This document shows, piece after piece, positions 18,099 to 42,555 of a stretch of DNA of 64,000 bases. Under the pieces are notes generated by a model. The model saw only the letters and a list, made by a program, of their open reading frames with translations, made no database searches and was not told the origin of the DNA. This DNA is from Pseudoxanthomonas spadix (GTDB lineage: Bacteria > Pseudomonadota > Gammaproteobacteria > Xanthomonadales > Xanthomonadaceae): contig NZ_RDQN01000002.1 of the NCBI RefSeq assembly GCF_003703395.1, positions 186,001 to 250,000 of the forward strand. Reading direction: 5' to 3'. The stretch's first letter is position 1. Each line of letters begins with the position of its first letter. A program made the position numbers and the translations under genes.

Positions 18099-19295
18099 AT
18101 GAACGCGAAAAGTGGCGGAACGATCTCCAAAGAGTTGATGTGGCCAAATCACATAAACAAGATTCCCAAGGAAATCTTCGGGGATCCGGCAATTTTCGAA
18201 ATGGAGCTCGAGCGGATCTTCTACGGTCCGGAGTGGCATCTGGTAGGGCATGTGGCGGAGTTGCCGAACAAGGGCGATTTCAAGACATTCGACCTGGGTC
18301 GGCGTCCGATTCTGATCGCGCGAGGCGAGGACGACCGGGTACGAATTTTTTACAACGCGTGCACGCATCGTGGCACCCAGGTCGAAACTTCGACCTGCGG
18401 CAATCGGAAGAGTTTCGAGTGCCCCTACCATCAATGGAGTTTCAACACCGAGGGCGCGCTCGTTGGCTGTCCGGGAGAAAAGGAATTCACTCCAGGCTTC
18501 GACAAGGCGAACTACGGCCTGCGGGAGTTGCGCATGGAGCAATTTCTTGGATTGATCTTTGTGACTTCTTCCAGCGAAGCGCCGCCATTGGAAGAGTGGC
18601 TGGGGGAGATCGCAGCGCCGCTGACGGACATCCTGGGCGGGGAAGGGAAACTCAGGCTGCTGGGCTACCACAAGGTGATTTACGCCTCGAACTGGAAGGC
18701 GTACAACGACAACGATGGCTATCACGCGCCTTTGCTGCACAGCGCCTTCCGCATGCTGAACTGGCAGGGAGGAAAGGGCCGCCAGATTGCGACGCAGAGC
18801 GGACATAACGCGATCGAGGCAGAACTTTCGCTGCCGAAGGGCAACCGCTTCTTGAATGATCCTTCGCTGATCGAGTTCAAGGGCGCCGACCCCAGGCAGG
18901 GCTCACGGGTGGTGCAGCTTTTCCCCTTGACCGTGGCCACCAAGCACCTGGACACGATCAACCTGCGGTTTGCGATCCCGCGTAGCGTGGACGCGACAGA
19001 GGTGCATTACGCCTACTTCGGCCTGGAGTCGGATTCGGAGGAGATGCTTCGCCATCGCGTGCGGCAGAGTTCGAATCTGCTGGGCCCGTGCGGCATGATC
19101 TCGATGGAGGATGCTTCCATCTTCCAGCGCGTTCATCTGGGGACCTTTACGCCGGGCAACGTGGAGTTCCAGAAGGGTGTCAAGCGCACTGACGAGTTCT
19201 GGTCCGATTTCAAGCAGAATGACGAGGCCAGTTTTCTGCTGAAATGGGAGCACTACCGAAAGGTCATGGACTTCGAAAGGAGGCCGCAAGCATGA
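18099..19295 (+). CDS. aromatic-ring-hydroxylating dioxygenase, alpha subunit (first pair)
   Basis: A 398-residue Rieske non-heme iron oxygenase large subunit. The [2Fe-2S] ligands are in CTHRG (Cys88, His90) and CPYHQW (Cys108, His111). The mononuclear iron site is NDNDGYHAPLLH, with bridging Asp206 and His209/His214, plus an acidic ligand in the later ISMEDASIF segment. It catalyses NADH-dependent dihydroxylation of an aromatic ring with an external reductase, which is absent from this window. The beta gene overlaps by four bases. Base composition is lower in GC than the flanking core genes. The substrate is unknown; it is shorter than, and clearly different from, the other two alpha subunits here. 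Confidence 0.88.
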   Translation: MNAKSGGTISKELMWPNHINKIPKEIFGDPAIFEMELERIFYGPEWHLVGHVAELPNKGDFKTFDLGRRPILIARGEDDRVRIFYNACTHRGTQVETSTCGNRKSFECPYHQWSFNTEGALVGCPGEKEFTPGFDKANYGLRELRMEQFLGLIFVTSSSEAPPLEEWLGEIAAPLTDILGGEGKLRLLGYHKVIYASNWKAYNDNDGYHAPLLHSAFRMLNWQGGKGRQIATQSGHNAIEAELSLPKGNRFLNDPSLIEFKGADPRQGSRVVQLFPLTVATKHLDTINLRFAIPRSVDATEVHYAYFGLESDSEEMLRHRVRQSSNLLGPCGMISMEDASIFQRVHLGTFTPGNVEFQKGVKRTDEFWSDFKQNDEASFLLKWEHYRKVMDFERRPQA

Positions 19296-19786
19296 GCGCT
19301 GCATTGGAGCGTTTTGAGGTGCTGGAGCAGATTGATTCGTTGCAGCAGGCCTACGTGCAGGCGCTGGACTCGGCGAACATGGAGGACTGGCTCAATTGCT
19401 TCTCGCAGCAACAGGCCTCGTATGTCTGCATCTCCGACGAAAACGAGAAGCGAGGCCTGCCGATCGCGTTGATGCTGGACGACTGCCGCGAGCGGATCAA
19501 GGACCGGGTCTCGTTCGTGACCAAGATCTGGGCGGGGACCTTCGAGCCGTACCACACGACCCATTTCGTGCAGCGCCTGGGCGTGGAGAAGATCGCCGCG
19601 GACACGTATCGTCAGGTTGGCAACTTCTCCATCATGATTTCCCCGGAGATGGGTTCGAGCTCTGTGCTGGCGACCGGGCGTTACCACGACCTTGTGGCCC
19701 TGGAGGATGGCAAGGCGGTGTTTCGGGAAAAACGCGCCATCTACGACACCCGGATTCTGCCGCGGTACGTCGTCTACCCCTTCTGA
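19292..19786 (+). CDS. aromatic-ring-hydroxylating dioxygenase, beta subunit (first pair)
   Basis: A 164-residue small subunit of the NTF2-like fold. It begins MSAALERFEVLEQIDSLQQAY and ends with RAIYDTRILPRYVVYPF, a C-terminal pattern typical of ring-hydroxylating oxygenase beta subunits. These subunits stabilise the alpha3beta3 hexamer. The ATG overlaps the alpha stop (ATGA). The last 40 bases are part of the 290-bp direct repeat that recurs at 26514, so a stray copy of this gene's tail lies 6.8 kb downstream. Confidence 0.87.
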   Translation: MSAALERFEVLEQIDSLQQAYVQALDSANMEDWLNCFSQQQASYVCISDENEKRGLPIALMLDDCRERIKDRVSFVTKIWAGTFEPYHTTHFVQRLGVEKIAADTYRQVGNFSIMISPEMGSSSVLATGRYHDLVALEDGKAVFREKRAIYDTRILPRYVVYPF

Positions 19787-20036
19787 TACCGGGCCTGCGC
19801 CTTTGCGCTGAACCCCGGTGGCCGCGCGTTTGCCTGCTCGATCGGCAGGCACCCAACGGGTGCGGGTTGCTTGGGTCGGGCCACAACCAGGGCAAAACAG
19901 CCGGGCCCACAGCGGGCCCGGCATTGCAGGCATGACCGCCGTCAGCCGAGGGCCATCAATCCTGCGGCATCTTCAGATCGTACTGGGCCGGCGGCGTCCC
20001 ACCTGCCAGGTGGCGCACGAAATAGTCCCAGCGACG
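19747..20036. repeat. 290-bp direct repeat, copy A (left border of the 6.5-kb segment)
   Basis: This stretch is nearly identical to 26514-26802, with two substitutions and one 1-base indel seen by eye. It contains the last 12 codons of the beta subunit, the spacer, and the last 81 bases or so of the peptidase gene in antisense (stop at 19956-19958). Homology stops after GCGACG at 20036. The intact peptidase follows copy B, so copy A holds only a peptidase tail. Confidence 0.95.
19956..20036 (-). pseudogene. 3'-end fragment of the dipeptidyl peptidase gene
   Basis: The last 26 codons or so and the stop of the S9 peptidase encoded at 26722-29040, duplicated as part of repeat copy A. It is cut at 20036, where unrelated sequence begins. 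It has no start and is not expected to be expressed. Confidence 0.85.
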
Positions 20037-20081
20037 ACGCAGGCACGGCCGAGGAGTCGACAAGGTGACCTCGCCGGACGC

Positions 20082-20297
20082 TTACGGTCTGCCCGAGGCA
20101 AAGACGGCACCGATGACCGCCCCCATGCTGGTGCCGGCCACCAGGTCGACCGTGATGTTGGCCTCTTTCAGGGCGCGCAGCACGCCGATGTGCGCCAGAC
20201 CGCGCGCCGAGCCGCTGCCCAGCGCCAGGCCGATCCGGGGTCGCCTGGGCGGCGTCAGATCCGCCGCCGGGGCCTGCTTGGTTGGTGGCGCGTTCAT
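20082..20297 (-). pseudogene. patatin-like phospholipase, 3'-truncated (N-terminal 71 residues)
   Basis: The N-terminus reads [20 protein letters not shown], the patatin oxyanion-hole glycine loop, followed by [17 protein letters not shown] with the GxSxG nucleophile Ser57. Intact bacterial patatins are about 300 residues and need a downstream DG/A catalytic Asp, which is absent here. The frame ends shortly after FASGRP, close to the left border of the inserted segment. The start codon overlaps the stop of the upstream glycosyltransferase gene by four bases, so it was the next gene of that operon before truncation. Loss of function is expected. Confidence 0.85.
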
Positions 20298-22933
20298 TGG
20301 CTTTTGTCCTGGTCTGGCCCCTGCCCCGCAGGCCGGTGGCGCCCACCGGCGCGCCGGCGCAGACGCCGGATACCGTCGCGCAGTGACCGCCGCAGCGTCG
20401 TGGCCCGCGCGGGTCGCGCGCCCTGGCGGACCGGGAATTCACGCCCCACGGCGGCCTCGAAGACCTGAAAGCGCTTGAGATAGGCCTCGATCTCCTGGCG
20501 CCGCAGGCGCCAGGCGTCGATCCGGCCGTACTCGTTCACGAGTTCGGTGAACAGCACCCGCATGCGCCGCGCCCCCCGGTCTTGCAGCACCTCGTCGGCC
20601 CGCTCAGTGGCGATGCGCGCCAGCGCCAGGCTGCGCTCCAGCAGGCGCCGGATGTCCTGTGCGCCGTCAAGCTCACCAAGGCGCCCGATCTCCCGCAGAG
20701 GCCGTCTGGCCTGGGCCGCCAGCAAGCGCTGCAGGTCGGTCGCCAGGGCGCTGGCCAGGCTGCGCTGCACGCGGCTGAAATGCGCCGCATCGTCGGCCAG
20801 GGCGCCAGCCCCGTGGCCACGCAGGTCCTCAAAATAAAGCTGGTGGTCGCCGAAATAGCCGGTCAGCTGTTTGGTCGCGGCCGCTTCGAGAGGCTCCCGC
20901 GGCGCCTCGCGCAGCGCCCGCGCCACTGAGCGCAGCGGTTGCCCGAGCGACAGCGGAAAACGCGAAAAGCGATAGACCGCGTGGGCGCCCGGCACCTGCC
21001 GGTAGGCCACCAGTTCCATGCGCAGGGAAGCGTCTTCCTCGCAAACCTGCCGGGCTTCTTCAAAAATATCGAGCGGCATGGCCGGCAGCCACTGCCGCGC
21101 CAGCGGTGGCGAGCGGTCATAGCCGCCCGCGCGCAGGATGCGCACCACCACATCGGCGCAATTGAACTCGCTGCGGTCCCACAGCAGGCGGCCTTGCCGA
21201 AACGCCGCCTCGATCCGGTGCGCCTCGGCCACCATGGCCGCCTTGCGCCCTGCCGCCACGCCCGCCACCCGCAAGCCAAGCGTTTCGCGGCCATAGGCCA
21301 TGCCGTAGGTGTTGGTATGCACCTGCGACGGCGACGGCGGCTGCACGCCGTACAGGTAGTCGGCCAGCGTCACATGCTGCAACAGGTTGGGGTCCTGTCC
21401 CGGCACGGCCACATGGTTGGCGCTGTAGACGGTGTCGTCCACGCGAATGGCAATGTGCCCGAACGGGTTTTCCAGCACCACGCGCTGCGGTGTTTTGGCG
21501 GTCGAGTAGGACAGCAGCAGTTCGATGTCGCAGGGCACCTCGGCCTGGAGCCGCGCCAGCGCCGCGTCGATGTCGGCGACGGCGCTGCCGTGCTCGGCGC
21601 CGAAGTCCACCGGCAGACCCGGCGCAGGCAGGGCCGGGTCGAGCGCGAAGCGGGCGATGCGCCCGAGGCCGGCACGGTCGTGAAAGGCGAGCTGGGCGCG
21701 GCGCATTGCCGCCTGCCGCTGCGGGCTGGCCAGCACCGCGGCCGCCAGCTCGCCCGCCTGCGCCAGGGTGTCAGCCAGATCGGCCACCCCCAGCCGCACG
21801 AACAAGGCGGCATTTTCCCGTTCATGGCCGCTCACCACATCGAGCAAGAGGGTCGGAATGCCGATGGCAAAGGCCTCGGCCGGCGTCATCCCTCCGGCCT
21901 TGGTGATCAGCAGGTCCGCCGCGCCCATCCAGGCCAGCAGGTCGGCGTGCGGCACCAGGCCGCAGACCTTCAGCGCCACCGCCTCGGGCAGGCGCTTTTG
22001 CAGTGCTGTCAGCTGCGCCTGCTGCCGGGCGTTGGCGCCGCAGACGGCAATGATCTGCAGCGGGCCGGCGTGGTGGCGCGCGAGGCTCTCCACCACGAGC
22101 GCGTAGTCGCCGATGCCCTCCTTGCCGGAGGTGATGAGCACGGTGGGCGCATCCGCGGCCAGACCCAGCGCCATGAGCGCCGTCTCCCGGGTTGCGCCGT
22201 CGGCGGCCGGGGCGCGCACCGGCATGCCGCTGGTGGTGACCTTGTCGGGCGGAACACCCGCCGCCAGCCAGCGCGATTCCAGCTCGGGGTGGGCGAGAAA
22301 AGTGCGGTCGATGCGTTTCGAGATGCGCGGAAAATAGCCCTCGAAGAAGTCCGTGTGCAGCCAGCCGATGTTCACCTGCACCAGCAGCCCGCGCTCGCGC
22401 AGGGTCCCGAGCACCTGCGCCGATCCGTAATGCGTGGCGAGCACCGTGTCGGGGGCCTGTGCCTCCAGGAAGCTGCGCACCTTGTCTTCCGGGTAGTCGT
22501 TGGACAGCCATGCCAGCGAAGGCACCCGCTTGCCGCGCGCCTGCAGGGCATGGAACAGCGCGTCGAAGCTTTCCGGGAGATTGCCGGCGATGAACCAGTA
22601 GAGCCGCTCGTCCACCCAGCGCCAGAGCGGGTGCATGAACTCGCGGATGTCCTGCAGCACCACGCGCGCGCCCGGCGCCAGCCGGCCGATCTCCTGCTCG
22701 ATGGCCTGCGCGGCGCTGATGTGGCCATGGCCGATGGACGAATAAAAAATGACGATCTTTCGGCTCTGGGCGGCCCCGGCATCGCCCGCCGCCGGCGGGT
22801 GCGCAGCCAGTTGCCGCACCCGGTTGCGTCGCCGCACCAGCGCCCGCCATGCCAGGGCCGCCAGCAGGGTGAATGCGAACACCAGCGCCAGCGCGATGAG
22901 CGGGTCCATGCCCCAGGTCTGCGGTCCGCTCAT
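20294..22933 (-). CDS. MGDG-synthase-like glycosyltransferase fused to a permuted papain-like domain
   Basis: A 879-residue two-part protein. Residues 11-35 form an N-terminal membrane anchor. Residues about 58-430 are a GT-B glycosyltransferase of the MGDG synthase/MurG group: [20 protein letters not shown] (His69, His71) at the start of the fold and [18 protein letters not shown] near residue 345 for donor binding. Residues about 470-610 show His493 in [10 protein letters not shown] and, about 100 residues later, Cys592 in [11 protein letters not shown]. This His-before-Cys order is that of circularly permuted NlpC/P60 (LRAT-like) hydrolases or acyltransferases. The remaining C-terminus is helical and Arg-rich. 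It lies between an AarF-like tail and a patatin fragment with four-base overlaps, suggesting membrane-lipid synthesis or remodelling (inference). The fusion is unfamiliar to me. Confidence 0.7.
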
Positions 22934-23295
22934 TCCTTGCCCCCGCTGCGCCAGATCGACAGCAGCAGCCAGAGACTGCCGATGACGGCACCGACGAAGC
23001 CGAGCAGGCCAAAGAAGGGCAGCCCCGGCAAGGTGGGGCCGCCGGGCACGGTCATGACGATGGACGAGCCGACGATGAGGGCGGCGACGACGATGCCGAT
23101 CACCCGCCGGTCGGCGGCACTGTCGAGCTGGTTGCCGACGCGCTTCAGGTGCGTGACATCGATGTGGATTTCCAGCCGCCCACGCCGCGCGGCACGCAGC
23201 AGCCGGAAGTCGGGGTCGAGCTCGCAGCCCATGGCGTTGCGCACGATTGCCGTCACCGCGCCCAGCGACCATGGTGACTGTCTTACGGCAACCAA
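22930..23295 (-). pseudogene. AarF/UbiB (ABC1 kinase-like) protein, C-terminal remnant
   Basis: The 121-residue frame ends with VGNQLDSAADRRVIGIVVAA, then two transmembrane segments and a SIWRSGGKE tail. This is the characteristic C-terminus of AarF/UbiB-family atypical kinases involved in quinone or lipid homeostasis. The roughly 400-residue kinase domain is missing. The frame opens without a good start (TTG at 23295) just after the end of the ferritin-like gene, so it is a 5'-truncated remnant at an internal junction. Its stop overlaps the glycosyltransferase start (ATGA), which shows the original operon order. The two-helix tail could still be made as a small membrane protein. Confidence 0.7.
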
Positions 23296-23326
23296 GGCCG
23301 CAATTTCCTGGCCGCAAACTGGCTCG

Positions 23327-24163
23327 TCAACGCAGCAAGACCCGTCGTGCCAGCGAAGCGATTGGGCGCTCTGCCCAGCGCTGCAGCCGTGCGTTTAATT
23401 GCAAAGGTTTGAGCGCCATGCGCACAACCATATCCATGGGGTACTGCTTAAACATCAGTTCGCACACCTGCTTGTGGATGACCGCGTACGCAGGTGCTTC
23501 ACCGCCCCTCCCCCGAAAGCGCCAGGCCACGGCATGTCGCAGCGCGATGTCGGCGTCGCTCTTGCGCAGTTCAGCCATGCGACGCCAAAGTGTGGCGATT
23601 ACATGCCACCTGCGTAGATTTTCCTGCTGCCGATACCGGAGAAAGTATTTGTAGAAATGCTTGTAATGCAGCACCTCGTCGGTGCGGATGCGCCAGGTGA
23701 TATCCCGCAGCACAGGCTCATCGAACATGGCATTGATCGCCTGATAATAGGTGGTCGTGCCCATTTCGACGATGCAGCGCGCCACCAACTCCTGACCCCG
23801 CGTGGGTTCCAGTTCGTCGCAGGTGCATAGCTTGACATATTCCGCGAAAAAGTCGCCATAAGCGCTGTCCCAGTCGAACTCAGGCCAGACATGCTGCACA
23901 TAGGTCTTCAGCGCGCGGCCGTGCTGCAGTTCCTCGACTTTCCAGTGCTCGTTCAGCCATTCTCCGACCTCCGTATCGCCCGTGAAATAGTCCGCCAGGT
24001 TATGAGCGTAGGTTTCTGCGCCACTTTCGACGAACGAGGCGCTGCACACCAGAAGAAAGATGTCGTCGCGCATGCGCATGCGCGCGGTGTCGATGGAGGA
24101 GAAATCGATATCTTCCAGATGCCAGCGCAAATCTGTTGCACGTTGATCGCTGTGCATTGCCAT
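23327..24163 (-). CDS. ferritin-like diiron protein (acyl-ACP desaturase/oxygenase-like)
   Basis: A 278-residue protein with a complete four-helix diiron motif set: Glu50 (SGAET), EELQH (Glu78, His81), Glu133 (VEMGTTTYY) and DEVLHYKHF (Glu163, His166). The order E...ExxH...E...ExxH is that of acyl-ACP desaturases, AurF-like N-oxygenases and related ferritin-like oxidoreductases; I cannot choose between these. The start at 24163 is preceded by GAGGGGAAA; the longer open frame upstream (to 24466) lacks a ribosome-binding site. It lies inside the inserted segment, after the coiled-coil genes and before the AarF remnant. Confidence 0.75.
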   Translation of the reverse strand: MAMHSDQRATDLRWHLEDIDFSSIDTARMRMRDDIFLLVCSASFVESGAETYAHNLADYFTGDTEVGEWLNEHWKVEELQHGRALKTYVQHVWPEFDWDSAYGDFFAEYVKLCTCDELEPTRGQELVARCIVEMGTTTYYQAINAMFDEPVLRDITWRIRTDEVLHYKHFYKYFLRYRQQENLRRWHVIATLWRRMAELRKSDADIALRHAVAWRFRGRGGEAPAYAVIHKQVCELMFKQYPMDMVVRMALKPLQLNARLQRWAERPIASLARRVLLR

Positions 24164-24523
24164 TTTCCCCTCATGGAAGAGATTCGTAGCCTTTTGATCA
24201 TGAATCAGGCGGTTTTGTTGCAAATATAGCCACAGTTGCCGCGCAATCAGGCGCATCATTGCCACCATCCGTGTACGCACGAACAGCAAGGCCTGGAAAG
24301 CGCCTTCAGGGCACATGGCATCCGCACGACCCGCCGCCAATGCGACCGCGGGCCATGCTTGCCTCAGGTGATGCTCAACAAGTTCTGGCGATGGGCTGTG
24401 CTCCGCATCGGCGATAGGGTGCAAGGCACAAACCGCGCCACAGCCCAAGCCATGGCACGGATGCAACGCCGCAGACCCGCCGTTGCGGGATGCAGCACAC
24501 GCTGGGGGCTTGTTCAGCGTGGC

Positions 24524-24961
24524 CTAAAACGACTTGCTGATGGCGTCTTTGGCCTTCCGGGCCATTTCCGTTATTGCATCCAGAGCCTTGTTGGCAGCAT
24601 CCCTGGCGACTTCTGCTGCACGCTGGGCCGCTTCCTTACCGGATTCGGCCGCGTTTTTGACCGATTCCTCGGCCTTCTGCGCCGCATCGCTGGCGGCATC
24701 CGCTGCTTGATCGGCCGCGTCCGAGATTTTTTGCAGCGCGTCCCGGGTGGCTTGCGCGGTTTTGTCGACCAGCGTTGTTTCAGCCTCGGCCAGCCGGCTC
24801 CGGGCCGTCTTCAGGTTATCCTGAAGACGGGTGCGCAAGCCGGCGATCTTCTCGCTGGTTTGGTCGGCAGTGGCCTGCAAAAGCGCATCGGCATCGGCAA
24901 CAATCTGCTTCATGTCGGCGATCAGTTTTTCTTTGTTCATAGAACCGTTGGATTCAGACAT
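24524..24961 (-). CDS. cytoplasmic Ala-rich coiled-coil protein with DUF883/YqjD-like N-terminus
   Basis: A 145-residue protein. Residues about 8-65 (LIADMKQIVADADALLQATA...) resemble the helical N-terminus of ElaB/YqjD (DUF883) ribosome-associated proteins. The C-terminal membrane helix of that family is absent; instead residues 75-145 are an Ala/Lys/Glu 11-residue-type repeat helix reminiscent of LEA-like or phasin-like proteins. No signal peptide. The segment AAESGKEAAQRAAEVARDAA is nearly the same as one in the neighbouring exported protein, so the two share an origin. The role is unknown; stress protection or granule/membrane binding are possibilities only. Confidence 0.65.
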   Translation of the reverse strand: MSESNGSMNKEKLIADMKQIVADADALLQATADQTSEKIAGLRTRLQDNLKTARSRLAEAETTLVDKTAQATRDALQKISDAADQAADAASDAAQKAEESVKNAAESGKEAAQRAAEVARDAANKALDAITEMARKAKDAISKSF

Positions 24962-25069
24962 GGAAAACCTCCATCAGTGATTAAGAAAAAAATATCGGTG
25001 TAACAATTCTCAGGTCGGTAAGCACGCTCACGGCGGCCTAACCCGTTCGAAGCAGCCGCCTTCCAAGGG

Positions 25070-25660
25070 TTACTTCGTCACGGCATCTTTGACGTCTTTG
25101 ACCGTTTCCTTGGTTACCTCAAGCGCTTTGTCGGCTGCCTCTTGGGTGGCTTGCGTGGCTTTCTGTGCGGCGTCTCTGGCGGCTTCGGCCGCTTTCTGCG
25201 CAGCCTCTTTGCCAGATCTGGCCGCCTTTTCCGCCGCTTCCCCGGCCTTCTGAGCGGCTTCCTTGGTCGCTGCGGCGGCCTTTTTGGCGGCTTCCTCGGC
25301 CTTCTGTGCAGCCTGCTTGGTCGCTGGGGTCGCTTTCCGGGTGGCTTGCGCAGTCTTGCGGACTGCCAATTTGGCAGCTTGATCAGCATCTTGCGCGGCC
25401 TGATGGGCTGCTTCGGCGGTTTCCTGCGAGGCTTCACTGACGGCTTGTTCAGCCTTCTCTGCAGCCCGCTTGGCGGCCTCTGCGGCCTTGTGCGTCGCTT
25501 CCCTGGCTTCCTCGGCCGCTTTCTTCGCGCCTTCCTCCGCTTTCTGAAGCATGGGCGCCTTGGCCGTCTCGCCCGTCTTTGCCGCGGGTTCTTGCGCAGC
25601 CCGTGCACTTGTGCCCACGACCAGCGCCGACAGGATCAACCATGTTTTCCATTTCATCAT
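25070..25660 (-). CDS. exported Ala/Lys-rich coiled-coil (LEA-like) protein
   Basis: A 196-residue protein with a clear Sec signal peptide (MMKWKTWLILSALVVGTSARA, cut near residue 21). The mature part is about 170 residues of almost pure Ala/Lys/Glu/Thr repeats such as AAKRAAEKAEQAVSEA, with no aromatic residues. It should form a long amphipathic helix in the periplasm. Because the DNA is low-complexity, several long frames on both strands are artefacts of this gene. It lies downstream of the TetR gene and upstream of its cytoplasmic relative, and all three are probably co-regulated. No enzymatic function is suggested. Confidence 0.7.
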   Translation of the reverse strand: MMKWKTWLILSALVVGTSARAAQEPAAKTGETAKAPMLQKAEEGAKKAAEEAREATHKAAEAAKRAAEKAEQAVSEASQETAEAAHQAAQDADQAAKLAVRKTAQATRKATPATKQAAQKAEEAAKKAAAATKEAAQKAGEAAEKAARSGKEAAQKAAEAARDAAQKATQATQEAADKALEVTKETVKDVKDAVTK

Positions 25661-25675
25661 TGCTTCTCCTTGCAG

Positions 25676-26353
25676 TCATGGAGCAGAGACGTCTGCTCCG
25701 CACGTTTGCCCTGGGCCGGGGGTTTGTTGTGATTTTCCCTCGCTGTTTGTGCCAAGACCGTTACGCATCAAGCCCACGACATGCCGCGCGATGGCCTCGG
25801 GGTCTTCATGCTGTCGCTGGTAGCCCGGCAGGAAACGTCGCACCGACCGGGTTTCAAAGGGATAGATCACCAGACCGATCAGTGAAATGACGAAAGACTG
25901 GGGGTCATGGCCCGGAGCGACCTCACCGGCGAGATGACGCAGTGCGCTGAATAGGTCTCGAAAGACTTGATCGGCCAGGCTTTGCAGGCGCTGCTCATCG
26001 CTGTCCAGCAGTACCCACTGGATCAGGCGTCTAAAGTTCTCTTCCTTGGCGAGCAGGCGCGCGAACTGGAAAACGAAGGATTCGAGCCGGTCCCAAGGAT
26101 TTCCTGCGCCGTCAAAAAGGGCCTTCAAGGGCTCCATTTTTTCTTCAAAGGCACAGCCGACCGCATCCAGATAGAGCTGATCCTTGTCGGAGAAGTAGTA
26201 GTAAAGCGCCGCTTGGGTGAGGCCGGCGACGGCAGCGACATCGCGCATCGAAACGCCGTCATAGCCGTATTGGGCAAATAGAGGCGCCGATAGCTCGAGA
26301 ATCTCTTCCCGCGTTTTCCTTTTGGGGATGCCTTTAATCATCTGACTGCCCAT
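25676..26353 (-). CDS. TetR/AcrR family transcriptional regulator
   Basis: A 225-residue regulator. The N-terminal helix-turn-helix region reads TREEILELSAPLFAQYGYDG, then VSMRDVAAVAGLTQAALYYYFSDKDQLY, a textbook TetR DNA-binding domain. The C-terminal half (FARLLAKEENFRRLIQWVLLDS...) is the ligand and dimer domain, with a C-terminus like that of regulators of fatty acid or drug-efflux genes. It is first in the minus-strand gene series of the inserted segment and has an 18-bp palindrome 22 bp before its ATG, so it likely represses itself and the genes downstream. The ligand is unknown. Confidence 0.88.
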   Translation of the reverse strand: MGSQMIKGIPKRKTREEILELSAPLFAQYGYDGVSMRDVAAVAGLTQAALYYYFSDKDQLYLDAVGCAFEEKMEPLKALFDGAGNPWDRLESFVFQFARLLAKEENFRRLIQWVLLDSDEQRLQSLADQVFRDLFSALRHLAGEVAPGHDPQSFVISLIGLVIYPFETRSVRRFLPGYQRQHEDPEAIARHVVGLMRNGLGTNSEGKSQQTPGPGQTCGADVSAP

Positions 26354-26374
26354 GGACAGGCTCCAACAATGAAC

Positions 26375-26392
26375 TTAACGAACGTTCAGTAA
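26375..26392. promoter_or_regulatory. TetR-type operator palindrome
   Basis: The 18-bp site reads TTA-AC-GAACGTTC-AG-TAA, a perfect palindrome apart from the two dinucleotide spacers. It lies 22 bp upstream of the TetR start codon, where an autoregulatory operator is expected. Confidence 0.55.
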
Positions 26393-26513
26393 CTATACGC
26401 CGTTGTGCTATTGATTGGCAAGCTGCCGACGGAAAGCCTTGTTTCGGTGTCCGCGCCGCCAGATTTTGGAATGTCCGGTGGGGAACTGGCAGACTCAACT
26501 TCCAAGTGCAGTT

Positions 26514-26802
26514 CACCCGGATTCTGCCGCGGTACGTCGTCTACCCCTTCTGATACCGGGCCTGCGCCTTTGCGCTGAACCCCGGTGGCCGCGCGCTTGC
26601 CTGCTCGATCGGCAGGCACCCAACGGGTGCGGGTTGCTTGGGTCGGGCCACAAGCAGGGCAAACAGCCGGGCCCACAGCGGGCCCGGCATTGCAGGCATG
26701 ACCGCCGTCAGCCGAGGGCCATCAATCCTGCGGCATCTTCAGATCGTACTGGGCCGGCGGCGTCCCACCTGCCAGGTGGCGCACGAAATAGTCCCAGCGA
26801 CG
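26514..26802. repeat. 290-bp direct repeat, copy B (right border of the 6.5-kb segment)
   Basis: The second copy of 19747-20036, offset by 6767 bp. It begins with the last 40 bases of the oxygenase beta gene (a stray 12-codon tail and stop) and runs into the true 3' end of the peptidase gene. The differences from copy A are a T/C, a C/G and one missing A in an A-run. High identity implies a recent event or ongoing gene conversion. Confidence 0.95.
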
Positions 26803-29040
26803 GCGCGCCACGTAGGCAGTCAGCGAGCCATAGCCGTGGCGCGCATTGGGGATCATCAGCATGTCGAAGTCCTTGTTGGCCTTGATCAGCGCCTCGGCCA
26901 CCAGCAGCGACAGGTACGGCGGCACGTTATCGTCCAGGGTGCCGTGGACCAGCATCAGGTGGCCCTTGAGGTTGCCGGCCAGGGACTGGTTGGCCTGGCT
27001 GTCGTAGTTGCTCTTGCCGTCCTTTTCGATCAGTTCGCCCTGGTAGCGCTCGGCCCAGTCATCCTCGTAGCCGCGGTTGTCGTGGTTGCCGCTTTCCGAC
27101 CAGGCCACCTTGAAGAACTCCGGATAGCGCAGGATGGCCGCGGTGGAGGCATTGCCGCCGCCGGAGTGGCCCCAGATGCCGGCGCGTGAGAGGTCGATCC
27201 ACGGATGGCGCGCGGCCAGTTCCTTCATACCCGCCACCTGGTCGGGCAGCGTGTTGTCGGCCATGTCGCCATACCAGGCATCGTGGAAGGACTTGGAGCG
27301 CCACGGCGTACCCATGCCGTCAATGGCCACCACGATGAAGCCCAGTTCGGCCAGCGACTGATTGTCGACATGGGTGGCCAAAAAGCTGCGGCCGCGCACC
27401 GAGCCGGTCTGCGGGCCGGGGTAGATGTAGTTGACGATCGGGTACTTTTTGGACGGATCGAAGTTGGAGGGCTTGAACATCACCCCGTACAGCTCGGTCC
27501 TGCCGTCGCGCGCCTTGACCGTGAACGGCACCGGCGGCACCCAGCCGGCAGCCTTGAGGCGGGTGATGTCGGCGCGGGCGACTTCGGAGACCCCGGTCCC
27601 GTCGGCCGCGCTGCGCAGCAGCGTCACCGGCGGCACGGTGGTGGTCGAATAGGCATCGACGAACAGCTTGCCGTCCGGGGACAGCGACACGGTGTGGTCA
27701 CTGGGTTCAGGCGTGAGCAGGATCGGCGCGCCACCGTCCAGGCTGGCTTTCCAGAACTGCTGGTAGTACGGGTTGATGCCGGGGGTATGGCCGACGCCGC
27801 GGAACCACACGGTGCGCGAAACCGGATCGACCTTGAGCAACTCGGTGACGTTGCCTTCGCCGGTGGTGATGGCGTGCTTGAGCTGGCCGGTGGTCAGGTC
27901 GTACAGGTAGAGCTGGCCCCAGTCGGAGCGTTCGGAAAACCAGACCGCCTCGTTGGTCTGCGGCAGGTAGGCCCAGCTGGCCGTGCCGTTGCCGCTTTCG
28001 TACTGGGTCTTGACGTGCTCGGAGAACACCGTGCGCACCTGGCCGGTGGCCGCATCGGCGATCCGGAACCAGGCATCCTTGTGGAAGCGCGAGGTGGAGA
28101 CGAAGGCCAGCGTCTTGCTGTCCGGTGCCCACTTCACATCGTCCCAGCCGCCATCCGGGCCGCAACTGATGTCATCGCACAGCGTGGAACGATGCTGGTC
28201 CGGGGCCATCTTCAGCCGGATGACCTTTCTGGTGGGCACCTCGATCACCACCCGCTCGATCATGGTCACCTCCTTGTCGCCGGGCAACGGATATTTCCAT
28301 GACTCCAGCTTCGGGTGGCCCACCTGGGTGTTGACCAGATACATCTGCCCGGTCTTGCGCTGGTCCTGCTGGAAGGTGGCGATCCTGTTCGAATCCGGCG
28401 ACCACTCCACGATCGCCTTATCGGTGTGCTTCCAGCCGGCGTTGTCGGTGGCGTAGCCGTAATCCTGGACCCCGTCGGTGGTCAGCTGGGTCTCGGCGCC
28501 GGTGGCCAGCTCGCGCACCCACAGGTTCCAGTCGCGAACGAACGCCTCGGACCGCTTGTCCGGGGACAGCGCGCCGGGCTCCGGATTGGCCTTGGCGTAG
28601 ACCTTGGCGCAGCGGGCATTGGCATCGCAGACCACCTGGGTGTCACGCACGGTGAAGCGGTAACGGCGATCGGCGGTCAGCGCGATCTTGCCCAGGCCCA
28701 GCTTCTCGGCCTTGATCGGCTTGTCGCCTGTGGCCAGCAGGGTGTTCAGCGCAGCCGCCAGCGCCTGCGCGTCGAACAACGGCGCGGTCCTGCCGGTGGC
28801 CACGTCGGTCTGCAGCAGGCGGTCGCCGCTGGCGTCGTGGTCGGTGTAGACAAAGTGGCTTGCATCCAGCCAGGTCACCCGGGTCACGGCGTGGTCGACC
28901 AGCGGCTGGGCGAACAGCAGCCTGTCGGCCCGGGCATAGTCGGCCTGGCTCACGGTCGGCGTCTGCGCGTAGACGCCGAGCGACAGCGCGGCCAGCAACA
29001 GGGCGCACAACAGGCGCGGCGTGCGGGTATTCAGGAGCAT
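26722..29040 (-). CDS. S9B dipeptidyl peptidase IV-type serine protease, exported
   Basis: A 772-residue exported enzyme with a signal peptide (cut after VYA, residue 25), an N-terminal beta-propeller (DPPIV_N) and a C-terminal alpha/beta-hydrolase peptidase domain. The catalytic residues are Ser626 in WGHSGGG, Asp703 in GTLDDNVPP and His735 in NARHGYGS. The family removes X-Pro or X-Ala dipeptides from peptide N-termini in the periplasm. The start is the methionine at MLLNTRTPRLL; the open frame extends upstream without a signal. Its last 81 bases are duplicated at 19956-20036. Composition is like the core genome, so the accessory genes have inserted around it. Confidence 0.92.
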   Translation of the reverse strand: MLLNTRTPRLLCALLLAALSLGVYAQTPTVSQADYARADRLLFAQPLVDHAVTRVTWLDASHFVYTDHDASGDRLLQTDVATGRTAPLFDAQALAAALNTLLATGDKPIKAEKLGLGKIALTADRRYRFTVRDTQVVCDANARCAKVYAKANPEPGALSPDKRSEAFVRDWNLWVRELATGAETQLTTDGVQDYGYATDNAGWKHTDKAIVEWSPDSNRIATFQQDQRKTGQMYLVNTQVGHPKLESWKYPLPGDKEVTMIERVVIEVPTRKVIRLKMAPDQHRSTLCDDISCGPDGGWDDVKWAPDSKTLAFVSTSRFHKDAWFRIADAATGQVRTVFSEHVKTQYESGNGTASWAYLPQTNEAVWFSERSDWGQLYLYDLTTGQLKHAITTGEGNVTELLKVDPVSRTVWFRGVGHTPGINPYYQQFWKASLDGGAPILLTPEPSDHTVSLSPDGKLFVDAYSTTTVPPVTLLRSAADGTGVSEVARADITRLKAAGWVPPVPFTVKARDGRTELYGVMFKPSNFDPSKKYPIVNYIYPGPQTGSVRGRSFLATHVDNQSLAELGFIVVAIDGMGTPWRSKSFHDAWYGDMADNTLPDQVAGMKELAARHPWIDLSRAGIWGHSGGGNASTAAILRYPEFFKVAWSESGNHDNRGYEDDWAERYQGELIEKDGKSNYDSQANQSLAGNLKGHLMLVHGTLDDNVPPYLSLLVAEALIKANKDFDMLMIPNARHGYGSLTAYVARRRWDYFVRHLAGGTPPAQYDLKMPQD

Positions 29041-29466
29041 GGAGATTCCCCAGGCGAAGATGGGACACGCCGGCGTGGACCAGCGCGTTTGCGAACGGCC
29101 GATCGTACCGCCGCCGCGTCCCGGCTTCCCCTGCCAGAGGTCCCGCTCGGGGTTGCGCAACGCCTGGGCGCACGGGTCTGGCTCCAGACGACAGCCGGCA
29201 GCGTCGCCACTGGTGATCAGCATGGCGTCCTGCGTCGTCGGGTGACGCCGGCGCGTTTGCTTACTGCTGCATGCCTGCCCTGGAACCGCTGGATCCCGCC
29301 ACGGTCACCGAGCTCTACCGCTTCGCAATGCTGCTGGCGCCGGGCCGCTGTTCTCAAGCATGGCGCTGTCAGAGCGCGTGCCCAGCCGGCCACCGTTGGA
29401 TCGGTGGCCACCTTTCATTCTCGAAACCCACTGGTACGGGGCTGAAAGCCCGACGGCCGCTCAGGA
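29041..29466. other. 426-bp gap at the border of catabolic cluster A
   Basis: Upstream region of the peptidase gene on the minus strand. On the plus strand a frame opens at 29271 with MPALEPLDPATVTELYRFAM and then loses coherent composition after about residue 26. It could be the 5' stub of a gene cut by insertion of cluster A (see the separate entry). Nothing else is recognised. Confidence 0.4.
29271..29345 (+). pseudogene. possible 5' stub of a truncated gene (sigma-factor-like start)
   Basis: The first 25 residues, ending in LYRFAMLLAPG, resemble the start of ECF-type sigma factors (…LYRFALxL…), after which the frame becomes Arg/Ser/Pro-rich and unlike protein. The likely breakpoint is close to 29345, just before cluster A starts at 29467. 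The family call rests on a very short stretch and is weak. Confidence 0.22.
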
Positions 29467-30270
29467 TCAGGGCGCCAATTTGCCACCCGCATTCGCCAGG
29501 GAACCGCCATCCACTGGCAGCGAATAACCTGTGATGTAAGAAGAATAATCTGAAGCGAGAAAGAGAAAGCCCTCGGCCACATCCTCAGGCTTGCCCAAGC
29601 CCATGGGCATTCCAGGGCCAAGCATGCCCTCGATCATGGCCATATCCTTGACCCCATGTTCCTCCAGGGTATTGAGCGAGCCCTGGGTGACAGTAAATCC
29701 TGGCGCCACCGCGTTGACGCGAATGCCCTGGGGGGAGTGAAGGGTTGCGGTTGACCGAACCAGCAGCTCCACCGCAGCCTTCGCCGAACCATAGGCAGGC
29801 ATCATTGCCGGATGCGTCATTGATCCATAATCTCCAAAATGCGAGGACGAGGTGGCAATCAGGCTTCCAGCTCCTTGCTTCTGCATGTAGGGAATGACCG
29901 CCTGAAACGCAAACAGCGTGCCGGTCGCCATCACGGCATACTGCCGCTCCCAATCGGACTGGGTCATCTCCATGACCGTCATTCCGGTACTCACGAAGGG
30001 CGTGACCACCAGGACATCGATACCTCCAAGTTTTCCTGCGACTTCATCAACGGCTCCGCTCACGGACGCCTTCTTGGTCACATCAACGCCAACAAAGCAA
30101 CTGCCCCCACCCAACGCCGAAATCTGGGCTGCCGTTGCCTCGGCGCCACTGGTGTCGATGTCAGCAACGGCGACCTTGGCTCCCTCGCGGGCAAAGAGCT
30201 TGGCGGTTTCCCGGCCGATTCCCGAAGCGGCGCCAATGACCAATGCGCGTTTTCCATCCAATAAACCCAT
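29467..30270 (-). CDS. short-chain dehydrogenase/reductase (cluster A)
   Basis: A 267-residue classical SDR. The cofactor motif is GAASGIG near the N-terminus; the catalytic Ser and YGSAK (Tyr/Lys) lie in the middle; VNAVAPGF and ITGYSLPVDGG finish the fold. SDRs of this type act as NAD(P)-dependent alcohol or cis-dihydrodiol dehydrogenases. The start MGLLDGKRAL is fixed by GAGGGGG just upstream. It is the last gene of cluster A and is separated by 13 bp from another SDR gene that lacks the catalytic tyrosine, so the pair may form a heteromer (inference). Confidence 0.85.
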   Translation of the reverse strand: MGLLDGKRALVIGAASGIGRETAKLFAREGAKVAVADIDTSGAEATAAQISALGGGSCFVGVDVTKKASVSGAVDEVAGKLGGIDVLVVTPFVSTGMTVMEMTQSDWERQYAVMATGTLFAFQAVIPYMQKQGAGSLIATSSSHFGDYGSMTHPAMMPAYGSAKAAVELLVRSTATLHSPQGIRVNAVAPGFTVTQGSLNTLEEHGVKDMAMIEGMLGPGMPMGLGKPEDVAEGFLFLASDYSSYITGYSLPVDGGSLANAGGKLAP

Positions 30271-30283
30271 GGTGTCCCCCTCA

Positions 30284-31006
30284 TTAAGTCCACAAAAGGC
30301 CGCCATCGACCAGAACAGTGGCGCCGGTTATCGTACGGGCGTGATCAGAGGCCAGGAACGCGACCACCTTGCCTACTTCATCGGGGCTCCCACCACGTCG
30401 CAGGGCCACCCGTCCGACCGCGCGATCGAACGCGGCCGAGGGATCATCGGTACCCACCACCGTGGCCCGCCTTGCCGCAATGTCACGCATATGGGGCGTA
30501 TCGATCAGCCCCACACACGCCAAGTTTGCGCGAAACCCCCGCTTGGCCCCACTCAGTGCCAGTGCCTTGGTGAGCGGCCCCAAGATCGCCTTGGACGCAC
30601 CGGTCAAGCCCACCTCGGGGCTGGTTGCCATCGCCCACAGACACCCCAGGCTACAGAGACTCCCTTTTCCTGCGATTCGCCGCGCACTCTCCTGGGCGAT
30701 CACCACCGCCGCAGTCGAATTAACAGCGGTCAACTCATCCCACACCGCCTTGTCAGCGTCCTCAGGCTTACCCACCCACCAGTAAGTGACCGCATTGATC
30801 ACATCGTCAATGCCGCCAAGGTACTCGGCCGCCTGATCAAAAATTCCGGCCACTTCTGCGGGTTTGTAGTGGTACGCAGTGTTCCCACCAGGACCGGCAA
30901 CGAACACACGGGCACCCTCCTTCGTCAGACGTCCTACCACCGCCTGTCCCAGGCCGTCGTCCCCTATGAATGCGAGGACGCGATGACCATCCAGTAAACC
31001 GGGCAT
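30284..31006 (-). CDS. SDR-fold protein lacking the catalytic tyrosine (cluster A)
   Basis: A 240-residue SDR homologue starting MPGLLDGHRVLAFIGDDGLG. The TGxxxGxG cofactor motif is altered to IGDDGLGQ. At the YxxxK site the sequence is TGASK, with Thr135 instead of Tyr and Lys139 kept. The end ITGATVLVDGGLLW is typical of the fold. A functional SDR reductase normally needs the Tyr, so this is either a non-catalytic partner of the adjacent SDR or an enzyme with changed chemistry. GGAGAGAGAAGA precedes the start. It lies 38 bp downstream of the outer-membrane transporter gene. Confidence 0.78.
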   Translation of the reverse strand: MPGLLDGHRVLAFIGDDGLGQAVVGRLTKEGARVFVAGPGGNTAYHYKPAEVAGIFDQAAEYLGGIDDVINAVTYWWVGKPEDADKAVWDELTAVNSTAAVVIAQESARRIAGKGSLCSLGCLWAMATSPEVGLTGASKAILGPLTKALALSGAKRGFRANLACVGLIDTPHMRDIAARRATVVGTDDPSAAFDRAVGRVALRRGGSPDEVGKVVAFLASDHARTITGATVLVDGGLLWT

Positions 31007-31044
31007 TCTTCTCTCTCCATTGTTATTAAGGTTCGCCGGCATCC

Positions 31045-31962
31045 TTAGAAAATATACCCAATCTGAAACCACAGCGGATCGGACTCGCTTCTGTTCCGCG
31101 CGCTCACCTCGTTGTTGTATTTAAGAACGGCAGAAACCTTCTCGCTGAAGTCATAGCGAACCGAGGCCCCCAGACCGGTAGCGCGGGTTTGACCACCTCC
31201 TTCGATCCTCACACCGGGAAGCTTGTCGTCGCTCAGCTGCTTTATGTAGTATGGCGAAAATCCGAAATGCAGCTTCGGATTGGAGGTGGGAGTATACTCC
31301 ACGCTCGGGTGAATGAAGAATACATCGCCACTCTTATATAACGTCTCGTCATTTCGCTCCAGAGGGAATTCAATGCCGGTCGTGGCCGAGGTTGACCAAT
31401 TCCTGTTTATGAACCACGTATAGCTGTAAAGCGGCGTTATGGCGTTGTAGTTCTGATGAACATTAGCCAGCCGGCGAGAATCATAGCCGCCACTCTTGAT
31501 GAAAATATCGACAAAGAACGAGGAGAAGAACGTATTTGATGGATTCACGTAGTTGACGTGGATCGGCTCCAGATCTATCGCACCGATACCTGTATCGGTG
31601 TCCGACATGCCCATGATCGAGGTCTTCGACCTGACGATCGGCACATTGAAGGCCGAGGAAATTGTCCATCCCCCATTGCTATAATTCCAAGTATGGATAG
31701 TTCGAAATGCCCCGACGAACGTCGTGTTCTCGAAGTCCGGAATTCCGCTGTCGCCCTTATCATTGATGTACTTGGTTGACTTGTCATAGAAATAATAATT
31801 GAGCAACACGGTACCGCCTGGCCTGGGCAATATGCCATCCAGAATGCCGTTGACACCAATCGGGTAGTTCGTCAATCCCAGCTCGGTGGCGCATGCCGCG
31901 TGCGAAAAGCTGGCGGCCAAGGCAAAGTAAATAGAACGAGCAAGTTTCCTGCTGCTTTTCAT
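31045..31962 (-). CDS. outer-membrane transporter of the MetA-pathway phenol degradation family
   Basis: A 305-residue exported beta-barrel protein with a signal peptide cut near residue 25 (SHAACA/TELG). It has many alternating aromatic strands (VLLNYYFYDKSTKY, HFGFSPYYIKQL) and ends in WFQIGYIF, with the terminal Phe needed for BAM-dependent outer-membrane insertion. This pattern matches the Phenol_MetA_deg family found in aromatic catabolic clusters, thought to bring hydrophobic aromatics across the outer membrane. GC content is clearly lower than in the surrounding genome, which suggests transfer. Placed between an SDR and a C-C hydrolase gene, it probably supplies the substrate of cluster A. 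Confidence 0.72.
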   Translation of the reverse strand: MKSSRKLARSIYFALAASFSHAACATELGLTNYPIGVNGILDGILPRPGGTVLLNYYFYDKSTKYINDKGDSGIPDFENTTFVGAFRTIHTWNYSNGGWTISSAFNVPIVRSKTSIMGMSDTDTGIGAIDLEPIHVNYVNPSNTFFSSFFVDIFIKSGGYDSRRLANVHQNYNAITPLYSYTWFINRNWSTSATTGIEFPLERNDETLYKSGDVFFIHPSVEYTPTSNPKLHFGFSPYYIKQLSDDKLPGVRIEGGGQTRATGLGASVRYDFSEKVSAVLKYNNEVSARNRSESDPLWFQIGYIF

Positions 31963-32095
31963 CGCTATCTCCCCGTATTGTATTTGATGTGGCTTTCATC
32001 GTTTCGCTATCTAATCAATTCTTCCAGAAAGTAAGAATTGGCACCCTCCCGAGTGGCTAACGAAGCTCGACCGCCGGTCCTCGCGCAACGAAACG

Positions 32096-32974
32096 TCAGC
32101 GGAGGAAGTCGATAACCATGTTGTTGACCAGCTCCGGCTGGTCGGTCTGGCACTGGTGTCCGGCACCAGCGATATATTCAAAAGGAATGTTGGGAAGAAG
32201 CTTTTCCAGTTCATGCCCCATCTGCACTGGAGCAAAGCTGTCATCAACGCCCCAGATGAACTTCGAAGGCACTTTGAGCTTTGGCAGTGAATCGATCAGA
32301 CTGAAGCGATCCCACAACTTGGGATCATTTCGCATGCGCTCCTGGTAGGCGTGAAACGCCTGGAGGGACTCCCGAATGCCAGGCCGATTGGCAGCTTCGT
32401 GACGTGACCTCACCAAGTTATCGCTGACCTTGGACGGATCACTGATGATTGCAACCAAGAACCGGCGCATCGCCTCTTCAGTGAAGTCGTAGCTCACCAG
32501 GGCCTGAAACGCCGCGTTATTGCCACCGTCCGGCCGGGGTAACCCCATGGACATGGCGATCGTGGCACTTCCAATGAAAAAGCATTTACGCACCTTTTCA
32601 GGATGGTCTATCGCATATTTTGCGGCGACATAGGCTCCCTGGGAGTTACCAACCATATGCACATCGTCGAGACACAAGGCGTCGATAAAGTCCCGAACAT
32701 GGTCGACCAGGCTCTGATGGCCCAGCACCGGCCACGCGTGCGGCCTGGCATCAGTCAAACCCATGGATATCTGATCTGGCGCAAAAACACGAAATCCGGC
32801 TTTCGCCAGCGCTGGCAGCATGAATCGCCATCCTGCTTCACCTGACGAACCAGGGCCGCCGCCATGACAGAGGATAACTACCGGCCCCTCGGTCCCGGCC
32901 CACGAATAATGCGTCCTTACTCCATTAGCCAAAACCCAACCATCATAATATCCTTCACCCAGTCTCATCGCCAT
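32096..32974 (-). CDS. meta-cleavage product (C-C bond) hydrolase, alpha/beta-hydrolase fold
   Basis: A 292-residue alpha/beta hydrolase with HGGGPGSSG oxyanion-hole loop, GNSQG nucleophile elbow (Ser111), Asp244 or Asp245 in WGVDDSFAP and His273 in GAGHQC. The HGGGPG motif is a mark of MhpC/BphD/TodF-type hydrolases, which cleave the C-C bond of ring-fission products to a 2-hydroxydienoate and an acid. The neighbouring LigB-type extradiol enzyme gene would make such a product. The gene is separated from its neighbours by 133 and 268 bp gaps. Confidence 0.85.
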   Translation of the reverse strand: MAMRLGEGYYDGWVLANGVRTHYSWAGTEGPVVILCHGGGPGSSGEAGWRFMLPALAKAGFRVFAPDQISMGLTDARPHAWPVLGHQSLVDHVRDFIDALCLDDVHMVGNSQGAYVAAKYAIDHPEKVRKCFFIGSATIAMSMGLPRPDGGNNAAFQALVSYDFTEEAMRRFLVAIISDPSKVSDNLVRSRHEAANRPGIRESLQAFHAYQERMRNDPKLWDRFSLIDSLPKLKVPSKFIWGVDDSFAPVQMGHELEKLLPNIPFEYIAGAGHQCQTDQPELVNNMVIDFLR

Positions 32975-33242
32975 CTCCTGTCATTTGAGCCATAAATAGT
33001 TAAAATTTCTCAGCGCTAAGCTGCACACGCCGGATTCCTCGCCGTCGGCAAGCGCACCTGCGTTTCCTGTTTTAGGGAGCCGGCCCCTCGTGCGCATCTG
33101 CACGTGCAGGCCCACTTCCACGCGCGGTGACGAGGAGAGCCAAGCGCCAATATAATTACCTGAGGACAATCTCCGCCGGCGTAACGTGCAATCGCCCCTG
33201 CATCATCAGCGCCGCGCATGGGCGGAACACTAATTCAAGGCT

Positions 33243-34205
33243 TCATGCAGAAACGATGTCCTGCTCGTTCCACCTGGCGACACACATTGCCATTATTGCC
33301 CGGTAGAAAGGCTCATAAGCCAGCACGTCGGCTTTCGCCCCTTGAACAGCGCCAAGCAGAATTATCCAAGTGCGCAATTCGAGATCGCCGTTGTCAAGTA
33401 AATCATCATTGGTGAATTCGGAGAGCTTCTTTCCCTCGCCTGCCGACAGATACTCAAGCATCTTGCGGTCGAATTCCTCACTGATGTGCCCATAGCCAAA
33501 CGGCCCTTCATATGCGGCATAAGGGTACCCTGCAGAGAAATGCGACAGCCCACCAGATGCATATATCGCGACCCGCTTTCCCTGCATTCGTTCGCTGATG
33601 ATATTGGATAGCGCCTGACCAAACGCATAGCAGCGCGCCGGGCTCGGCGCAGGCCAGTGAATGCCATTGACGAACAGCGGGATGATCGGAATGTCGGCAT
33701 CCGGCACCAGCACGCGATTAAGCGGCTCAGCATGCGCGTGAGAGCGCAACTGATCGTTGGCAAAGCGCTCGGAAAAGGATACGTCGAAGTCTTTCTCCAG
33801 AAGTCCTTCCAACAGTATTTGAGCAGCCGCCTGATCACATTTGTAGAGCTTCTCTTCTTTCCTTCCCCGGTCGAAGACCTTTACCTCTTTGCCCGTATAG
33901 ATGGCGAACTGCGGGATGTTTTCAACCGTGTAGTTTTCGTTCTGATCATCGCCAATGACAAGGAGCACATCGGGACGCGAATCCACCAGCGCCCGTCGCA
34001 TCGCGCTCAACCCATCCCTAATTCGCCCATACCTGACCTCATTGCTGACTGGGTCTTCGTTGTCCATCCTTGGGTTTACCGGGGGCTTTTCACCATACAG
34101 CTGGGCGTAATACTCTCGATTTTTTTCCCGAAACTCATCCCATTTATCCGGCTCCACCAGCGTGAACGCATGCGATGATGCCAGTGCCGTAACTATTTTG
34201 CCCAT
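33243..34205 (-). CDS. class III extradiol ring-cleavage dioxygenase, LigB superfamily
   Basis: A 320-residue LigB-fold protein starting MGKIVTALASSHAF, where His12 corresponds to the first iron ligand of the family. At the position where LigB and MhpB have an NDH motif, this protein reads IGDDQNENY, so the second expected His ligand is not obvious. Further conserved histidines are in SHAHAEP (156, 158), GIHWP (183) and GLSHF (222). The family opens catecholic rings next to the two hydroxyls. Genomic context (oxygenase alpha/beta, hydrolase) supports that role. The start at 34205 follows a GGGAGG site; the longer frame upstream was rejected. Confidence 0.75.
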   Translation of the reverse strand: MGKIVTALASSHAFTLVEPDKWDEFREKNREYYAQLYGEKPPVNPRMDNEDPVSNEVRYGRIRDGLSAMRRALVDSRPDVLLVIGDDQNENYTVENIPQFAIYTGKEVKVFDRGRKEEKLYKCDQAAAQILLEGLLEKDFDVSFSERFANDQLRSHAHAEPLNRVLVPDADIPIIPLFVNGIHWPAPSPARCYAFGQALSNIISERMQGKRVAIYASGGLSHFSAGYPYAAYEGPFGYGHISEEFDRKMLEYLSAGEGKKLSEFTNDDLLDNGDLELRTWIILLGAVQGAKADVLAYEPFYRAIMAMCVARWNEQDIVSA

Positions 34206-34267
34206 GTGACCTCCCGTACTGTTACATGACTGGGCGGGAAAGAAGGTGCACTGCACCTTCTTCCTCG

Positions 34268-34780: not shown

Positions 34781-34805
34781 ACATTTACTCTCCTGGGCGC
34801 TGGTT

Positions 34806-36188: not shown

Positions 36189-36226
36189 TTTATTCTCCTG
36201 GGTCTTTGAAATTACGCCAGCCGCTG

Positions 36227-37267: not shown

Positions 37268-37325
37268 ATCGCTGCTCCTGCTTGTTGCTGTTAACCACAA
37301 TTTCGTGCACCGAGGCGTCTCTCGT

Positions 37326-37350
37326 TTGATCTGACGTGCGGCAAGATCAA
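37326..37350. promoter_or_regulatory. inverted-repeat operator candidate upstream of cluster A
   Basis: Perfect 7-bp arms TTGATCT and AGATCAA are separated by 11 bp, 59 bp upstream of the first cluster A start codon. Spacing of this kind fits a dimeric regulator. No regulator gene is adjacent, so the binding protein is unknown. Confidence 0.4.
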
Positions 37351-40051: not shown

Positions 40052-40072
40052 GTCTTGCTTCCTGCGCTCTGG

Positions 40073-40601: not shown

Positions 40602-40638
40602 TACAAGATCCTCCATATCGGCTTCTTTGTAGGAATTT

Positions 40639-42495: not shown

Positions 42496-42555
42496 GGTTC
42501 TGTCCTGGTTCCTGCGCGTGCTCTCACCCTGCGCGCATGCGCGTGGCGGGCGCGC

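Follow-up and report, generated by a model that had tools for sequence, protein, structure and literature searches.

A stretch of 64,000 nucleotides from Pseudoxanthomonas spadix (assembly GCF_003703395.1, contig NZ_RDQN01000002.1, here contig 12, positions 186001–250000; referred to as the window) was analysed at a locus where a direct repeat brackets 6.47 kb of foreign DNA between the genes of a ring-hydroxylating oxygenase and the 3' end of a dipeptidyl-peptidase-IV-type gene. Features are collected in Table 1. Base-by-base realignment gave repeat copies of 290 bp (copy 1) and 289 bp (copy 2), which differ by two substitutions (19829 T/26596 C and 19887 C/26654 G) and a single-base indel (an additional A at 19894), with perfect runs of 82, 57, 6 and 142 bp between these sites. 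BLAST aligned the pair over 294 bp at 98.6% identity (E 1e-144), four bases further on the right. Within the window, 30-mers repeating an earlier 30-mer of the plus strand were found at 194 positions, all of them explained by the three long perfect runs of the pair (53+28+113), and a search of the genome with the repeat (3.37 Mb, 26 contigs) returned these two places only. The direct repeat of 290 bp and about 99% identity that a preliminary description of this DNA had reported is therefore real.

Each copy contains the last 40 nt of the oxygenase beta gene including the stop codon, an intergenic region of 168–169 nt that includes a terminator-like hairpin, and the final 81 nt of the peptidase gene. 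The claim that each copy spans the junction of these genes, with the genes intact on the outer sides and a stray tail of the other gene in each copy, was borne out: the alpha and beta genes are complete left of copy 1 and the peptidase gene is complete right of copy 2. Relative to the repeat copies, nothing is missing from the DNA between beta and peptidase. The oxygenase genes predate the duplication, because both copies include the joint between beta and the intergenic region. A tandem duplication of a larger segment was ruled out, because the shared sequence is limited to about 290 bp and the DNA flanking each copy is different on either side. Given the three differences, either the structure has endured for some time or its two copies were unlike from the start.

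Table 1. Features of the insert locus, in window coordinates
Feature	Coordinates	Strand	Domains and remarks
Rieske-type ring-hydroxylating oxygenase alpha subunit, complete	18099..19295	+	PF00355, PF00848
Ring-hydroxylating oxygenase beta subunit, complete	19292..19786	+	PF00866; last 40 nt in copy 1
Repeat copy 1	19747..20036		beta end, intergenic region, stray 81-nt peptidase gene tail
Filler between copy 1 and patatin fragment, 53 bp	20037..20089		weak short matches only, genus-wide
Patatin-like phospholipase gene, 5' fragment	20090..20297	-	PF01734 positions 1–49 of 191; cut after about 70/323 codons
MGDG-synthase-like glycosyltransferase protein, intact	20294..22957	-	PF06925, PF04101
AarF/UbiB-type gene remnant, C-terminal end	22930..23209	-	residues 503–582 of 582 aligned
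Stretch absent from aligned donor loci	23210..24531		holds open reading frame (ORF) 23327–24268 (-)
DUF883 protein	24524..24961	-	PF05957; 66% to Polaromonas protein
Alanine/lysine-rich hypothetical protein, same operon	25070..25660	-	79% to Polaromonas protein
TetR-type regulator	25676..26353	-	PF00440
AACGAACGTT-type palindrome upstream of TetR	26373..26394		motif common to 6/8 donor loci printed
Stretch between palindrome and IS30 end	26395..26490		no plasmid match; genus match only in next 20 nt
IS30-family terminal repeat relic, 20 nt	26491..26510		element body, absent here, would lie to right
Repeat copy 2	26514..26802		stray 40-nt beta tail, intergenic region, peptidase gene end
Dipeptidyl-peptidase-IV-type gene, complete, genus-native	26722..29148	-	PF00930, PF00326

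Origin of the insert and its junctions

The insert is a fragment of an operon resembling that of pollutant-degrading Burkholderiales; the homology ends within patatin on one side and shortly beyond TetR on the other. The oxygenase alpha subunit and the glycosyltransferase-type protein were each found in 1/297 genomes of the family, namely in their own genome (the six nearest relatives were absent from the same-genus genomes listed in these searches); ancestral presence of the segment was rejected for this family sample, and its description as foreign held. The DNA between the repeats is single-copy, and no second genomic copy was found as its source (the other match was just 85 nt at 79%). With the glycosyltransferase as query, 26 loci were found in a species-genome collection, the best at 95%; the closest (88–95%) belonged to a Burkholderiales metagenome-assembled genome (MAG), Rhodoferax, Herbaspirillum sp. 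RV1423, Hydrogenophaga aromaticivorans and Zoogloea oleivorans (fragments), and the gene was also present on two Polaromonas plasmids typed as conjugative.

For alignment of the insert region, 12 loci were used (9 of the 26 and three plasmid loci), 11 of which had insert homology. The left part of the homology started at 20087–20090 in 8 of the 11 (20101 in L055, a Thiobacillus MAG; 20224 in L050; at the contig end in L075) and broke off at 23209 in 8 of the 11 (22966 in L050, 23138 in L055, at the contig end in L074). Nine of the 11 had homology on the right, resuming at 24532–24597 and stopping at 26267–26327; this part was absent from L055 and L074. DNA identity was 87–96% on the left (80% in L055) and 77–87% on the right, which gives 77–96% overall to the Burkholderiales operon, unmatched middle and edges aside. 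On the Polaromonas plasmids NC_007950 and NC_008757 the order is TetR, hypothetical protein, DUF883, DUF6781, AarF, glycosyltransferase, patatin, polyprenyl synthetase, RND efflux. The insert shares this gene order, with 77–90% DNA identity over the shared parts, but is cut in patatin (residues 1–70 of 323 align to the Polaromonas protein), and DUF6781 and most of AarF are replaced by the unmatched stretch. The 313-residue product of the ORF in that stretch had no match in Pfam, NCBIfam, PHROGs or plasmids; it presumably resembles a ferritin-like diiron protein. The AACGAACGTT-type palindrome upstream of TetR is a likely operator. The middle of the AarF-type gene is also lost in L055 (7456–8025) and in L061 and L073 (7426–7977), where only the ends aligned, and here AarF is reduced to its end; the glycosyltransferase gene remains intact. 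A plasmid carrying the whole segment was sought and rejected, as no record covers 80% of it (best 75%). The literature search returned no paper on this operon's gene combination.

The assembly is a draft in 26 contigs and close relatives of the segment are partly plasmid-borne, so a segment located elsewhere, for example on a plasmid, might have been joined here wrongly. Such an artefact is very improbable: with three differences between them, the copies must be two real ones, the stated contamination is 0.7%, and the contig measures 560 kb.

At the left junction, a reading of the 53-bp filler as a decayed continuation of the patatin gene was rejected by a shuffle test, in which between 43 and 222 of 500 shuffled sequences reached the observed score for the 8 donors. 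Since the filler does not continue patatin, the patatin cuts here and in L055 lie about 59 nt apart and share no single site. At the right junction, the 20-nt relic is identical to the beginning of an IS30-type element that is intact in the relative G002 (NF033563, E 1e-80), and also matches L107 and L108 exactly. An exact scan of IMG/VR with an 18-mer of this end gave four loci, and the element end continued in all four; long transposase-like frames were found in L105 and L107, the contig ended near the match in L106 and L108, and L105 and L106 look alike and may be one sequence. The preliminary description had called the segment free of a transposase. This stands in so far as the five insert proteins scanned with Pfam, NCBIfam and PHROGs matched no transposase family, and no integrase family either; the IS30-type end, however, had been missed. 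The window holds no tRNA. Terminal inverted repeats at both ends of the insert were not found, the IS30-type end being on the right only.

An IS30-type element beside the operon might have driven the insertion or an adjacent rearrangement and later lost its body, leaving 20 nt. This would account for the exact end, whose loose form has no other match in 144 kb of the contig. The account is unlikely, however, as copy 2 adjoins the inner side of the terminal repeat, the left junction has no IS30 end, and no further genomic copy of the 20-mer was reported; in addition, target duplications of IS30-type elements are of a few bp.

The flanks differ in origin. The best plasmid match of alpha was Paraburkholderia aromaticivorans pBN2 (90% protein identity; 89% DNA identity over 18121–19805, the alpha and beta region), and the six nearest relatives contained just one 35-nt DNA match to alpha/beta genome-wide. 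A peptidase-type match of some kind was present in all 38 genomes of the genus, with identities of 79–85% in six relatives and 60–62% in three. The insert was not found in the stretches fetched around the peptidase gene of the six nearest relatives. The uninterrupted oxygenase-peptidase junction, for which a search of related genomes had been proposed, was found in none of the relatives searched. In two relatives mapped in detail, the 3' side of the peptidase gene lies within about 0.8 kb of DNA whose end in this genome is about 6.2 kb to the left of where the window begins; between the peptidase and this usual 3' neighbour are placed a native block, the oxygenase genes and the segment. In G034 the native block (window -6014 to 17935) is some 250 kb away from the peptidase, and in G032 the two are on different contigs. 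On the 5' side, 4/6 relatives have the gene at 50.55 kb at a distance of 0.5–6.3 kb from the peptidase in their fetched stretches; it falls just beyond the fetched stretch in G035 and is represented by a 56-nt match elsewhere in G026. Here a catabolic cluster lies between this gene and the peptidase. This cluster (29400–47000) is composite, with Rieske oxygenases, a LigB-type dioxygenase, short-chain dehydrogenases/reductases (SDRs) and a MarR regulator; its G+C content falls to 50–55% at 31–38 kb, and 43000–48000 has no near plasmid match. A separate repeat of about 170–200 bp, 85–88% alike, occurs at three places of the contig (681–853, 40071–40269 and some 32.4 kb to the left of the window); one of the three falls within the catabolic cluster.

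Parallel repeats at other glycosyltransferase loci

Similar scars were first looked for at 11 loci, and the search was then widened to 28 loci (direct repeats of at least 80 bp, more than 1.5 kb apart, E up to 1e-8). Three loci matched. In L055 a repeat of 211 bp at 91% identity (4596–4806/10927–11135) encloses 6.1 kb; homology with the other donors runs to 10927, within patatin, where the repeat copy begins, and the copy at 4596–4806 ends in the stray start of an HlyD-type gene that is complete after copy 2. L064 (Acidobacteriaceae MAG) has a repeat of 99 bp at 81% (7824–7922/10410–10506). Its glycosyltransferase gene is flanked on one side by a gene that ends within copy 1 and on the other by a stray version of this end, in frame, after which the next frame follows; the two genes at this repeat we take to be an efflux adaptor and a permease. 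In L077 (Polaromonas plasmid) the repeat measures 134 bp at 72% (6850–6983/22068–22201), and the whole operon lies between the end of a relaxase gene and a stray relaxase-like tail. A stray piece of a neighbouring gene thus takes the form of a tail at two loci (L064, L077) and of a head at one (L055). The four repeats, including the one described here, are mutually unlike.

Bracketing was then compared between 26 loci with the gene and 29 unrelated control stretches; L074 and L075, in which the gene is cut by contig ends, are not among these 26. At E up to 1e-3, 3/26 glycosyltransferase loci and 4/29 controls were bracketed; at E up to 1e-12 the counts were 3/26 and 1/29. Three of the control brackets measured 29–41 bp, and the fourth (L081), of 101 bp and 77% identity, has additional copies in its vicinity. 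The recurrence of brackets beside the glycosyltransferase gene is suggestive as an observation, an excess over the controls not being proven; the stray gene pieces are a stronger point than the bracket counts. That the glycosyltransferase gene and its operon are a recurrent cassette, docked by homology as circles lacking their own transposase in four unrelated settings with repeats of 99–290 bp, is quite improbable. If it were so, the divergence between copies (1, 9, 19 and 28%) would reflect the relatedness of the docking sequences or the age of the event.

Mode of insertion and its meaning

The favoured explanation is an additive insertion by homologous single crossover of a ligated circle, to which a probability of roughly 0.57 was assigned. 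In this sequence of events the oxygenase genes, having arrived first, would have adjoined the 3' end of the native peptidase gene; a molecule with the Burkholderiales operon fragment and about 290 bp of the oxygenase/peptidase junction would then have formed, its trimmed ends would have been ligated into a circle, and a single RecA-type crossover in the junction would have placed the circle in the chromosome. Intact outer genes, a copy of the junction on each side and ragged insert ends would result, and a transposase would be unnecessary. At the locus, as in a Campbell-type integration, a direct repeat of target homology flanks the insert on both sides and the target genes are whole on the outer sides. 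The insert edges are gene interiors or unmatched DNA and no element end lies at the left, which was counted in favour of the single crossover.

A precedent is given in PMC3240628, according to which cut plasmid DNA entering Escherichia coli was degraded or ligated and then integrated by RecA-dependent single crossover; a duplication product of the polymerase chain reaction (PCR) was obtained in 56/60 clones, and the 14 sequenced duplications measured 109–950 bp. As here, those integrants carry foreign DNA in the chromosome with part of the homologous locus duplicated, but they arose from a plasmid under selection that carried 1 kb of cloned homology, whereas the present event is natural and involves 290 bp. 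The loss of recipient DNA at the illegitimate end that PMC3240628 predicts for homology-facilitated illegitimate recombination was not found, as judged against the repeat copies rather than a parent site. Tandem duplications arising by transformation in pneumococcus (PMC3784515) likewise double host DNA via uptake and recombination with no active transposase; they differ in that about 100–900 kb of host DNA is doubled, whereas here 290 bp flank foreign DNA. No natural case like the present one was recognised in the literature searched.

A circle cannot be told apart from capture by template switching or end joining on the anatomy of the scar alone; template-switch capture leaves a similar scar. 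A fork or repair intermediate could have departed from the chromosome within the peptidase end and returned to it about 290 bp upstream, within beta, having copied or captured a short filler together with the foreign segment; a direct duplication would then arise with no circle. The 53-bp filler at the left junction and the patchwork nature of the insert, with its unrelated middle, would suit this route. Under it, however, the copies would be identical at birth, yet they differ at three sites, and those of the parallel loci are 9 to 28% apart, for which age could account too. Such break repair or template switching is considered rather unlikely. The stray ends at the parallel loci are diverged yet readable (relaxase in L077 at 72%, adaptor in L064 at 81%), and recombination between homologues therefore fits them better than doubling; the probability given to the single crossover was set on this ground. 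The interpretation given in the preliminary description is supported in part. Of the two outcomes that it names, integration of a circle by single crossover fits the anatomy and has a measured precedent, and duplication with insertion covers the template-switching or end-joining routes; the single crossover remains favoured.

Several points weigh against it. Neither the circle, nor an empty site, nor an excision product was seen, and no searched record holds a molecule joining the insert to the oxygenase/peptidase junction. An insertion sequence may have been involved at some stage, as the IS30 end at the right junction suggests, and the control stretches, as noted, were bracketed too (4/29). 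If the segment did enter by a single crossover, the reverse step might excise it, and the segment might then be unstable, as had been proposed.

The observation is real and was correctly described, and most likely reflects ordinary recombination with an unusual, possibly recurrent subject; the origin and truncation of the insert, the order of events, the IS30 relic and the parallel scars are added here. A natural single-crossover scar that retains the foreign DNA between its repeats would not be expected to last long, which makes each case useful, and this one supplies exact coordinates for an excision test. It also orders two gene gains, the oxygenase first and the operon second. The parallel scars, if they hold up, would point to a route of operon spreading that standard searches for mobile elements miss. 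At this locus, genes of a plasmid-type catabolic neighbourhood are present in another family without a working transposon.

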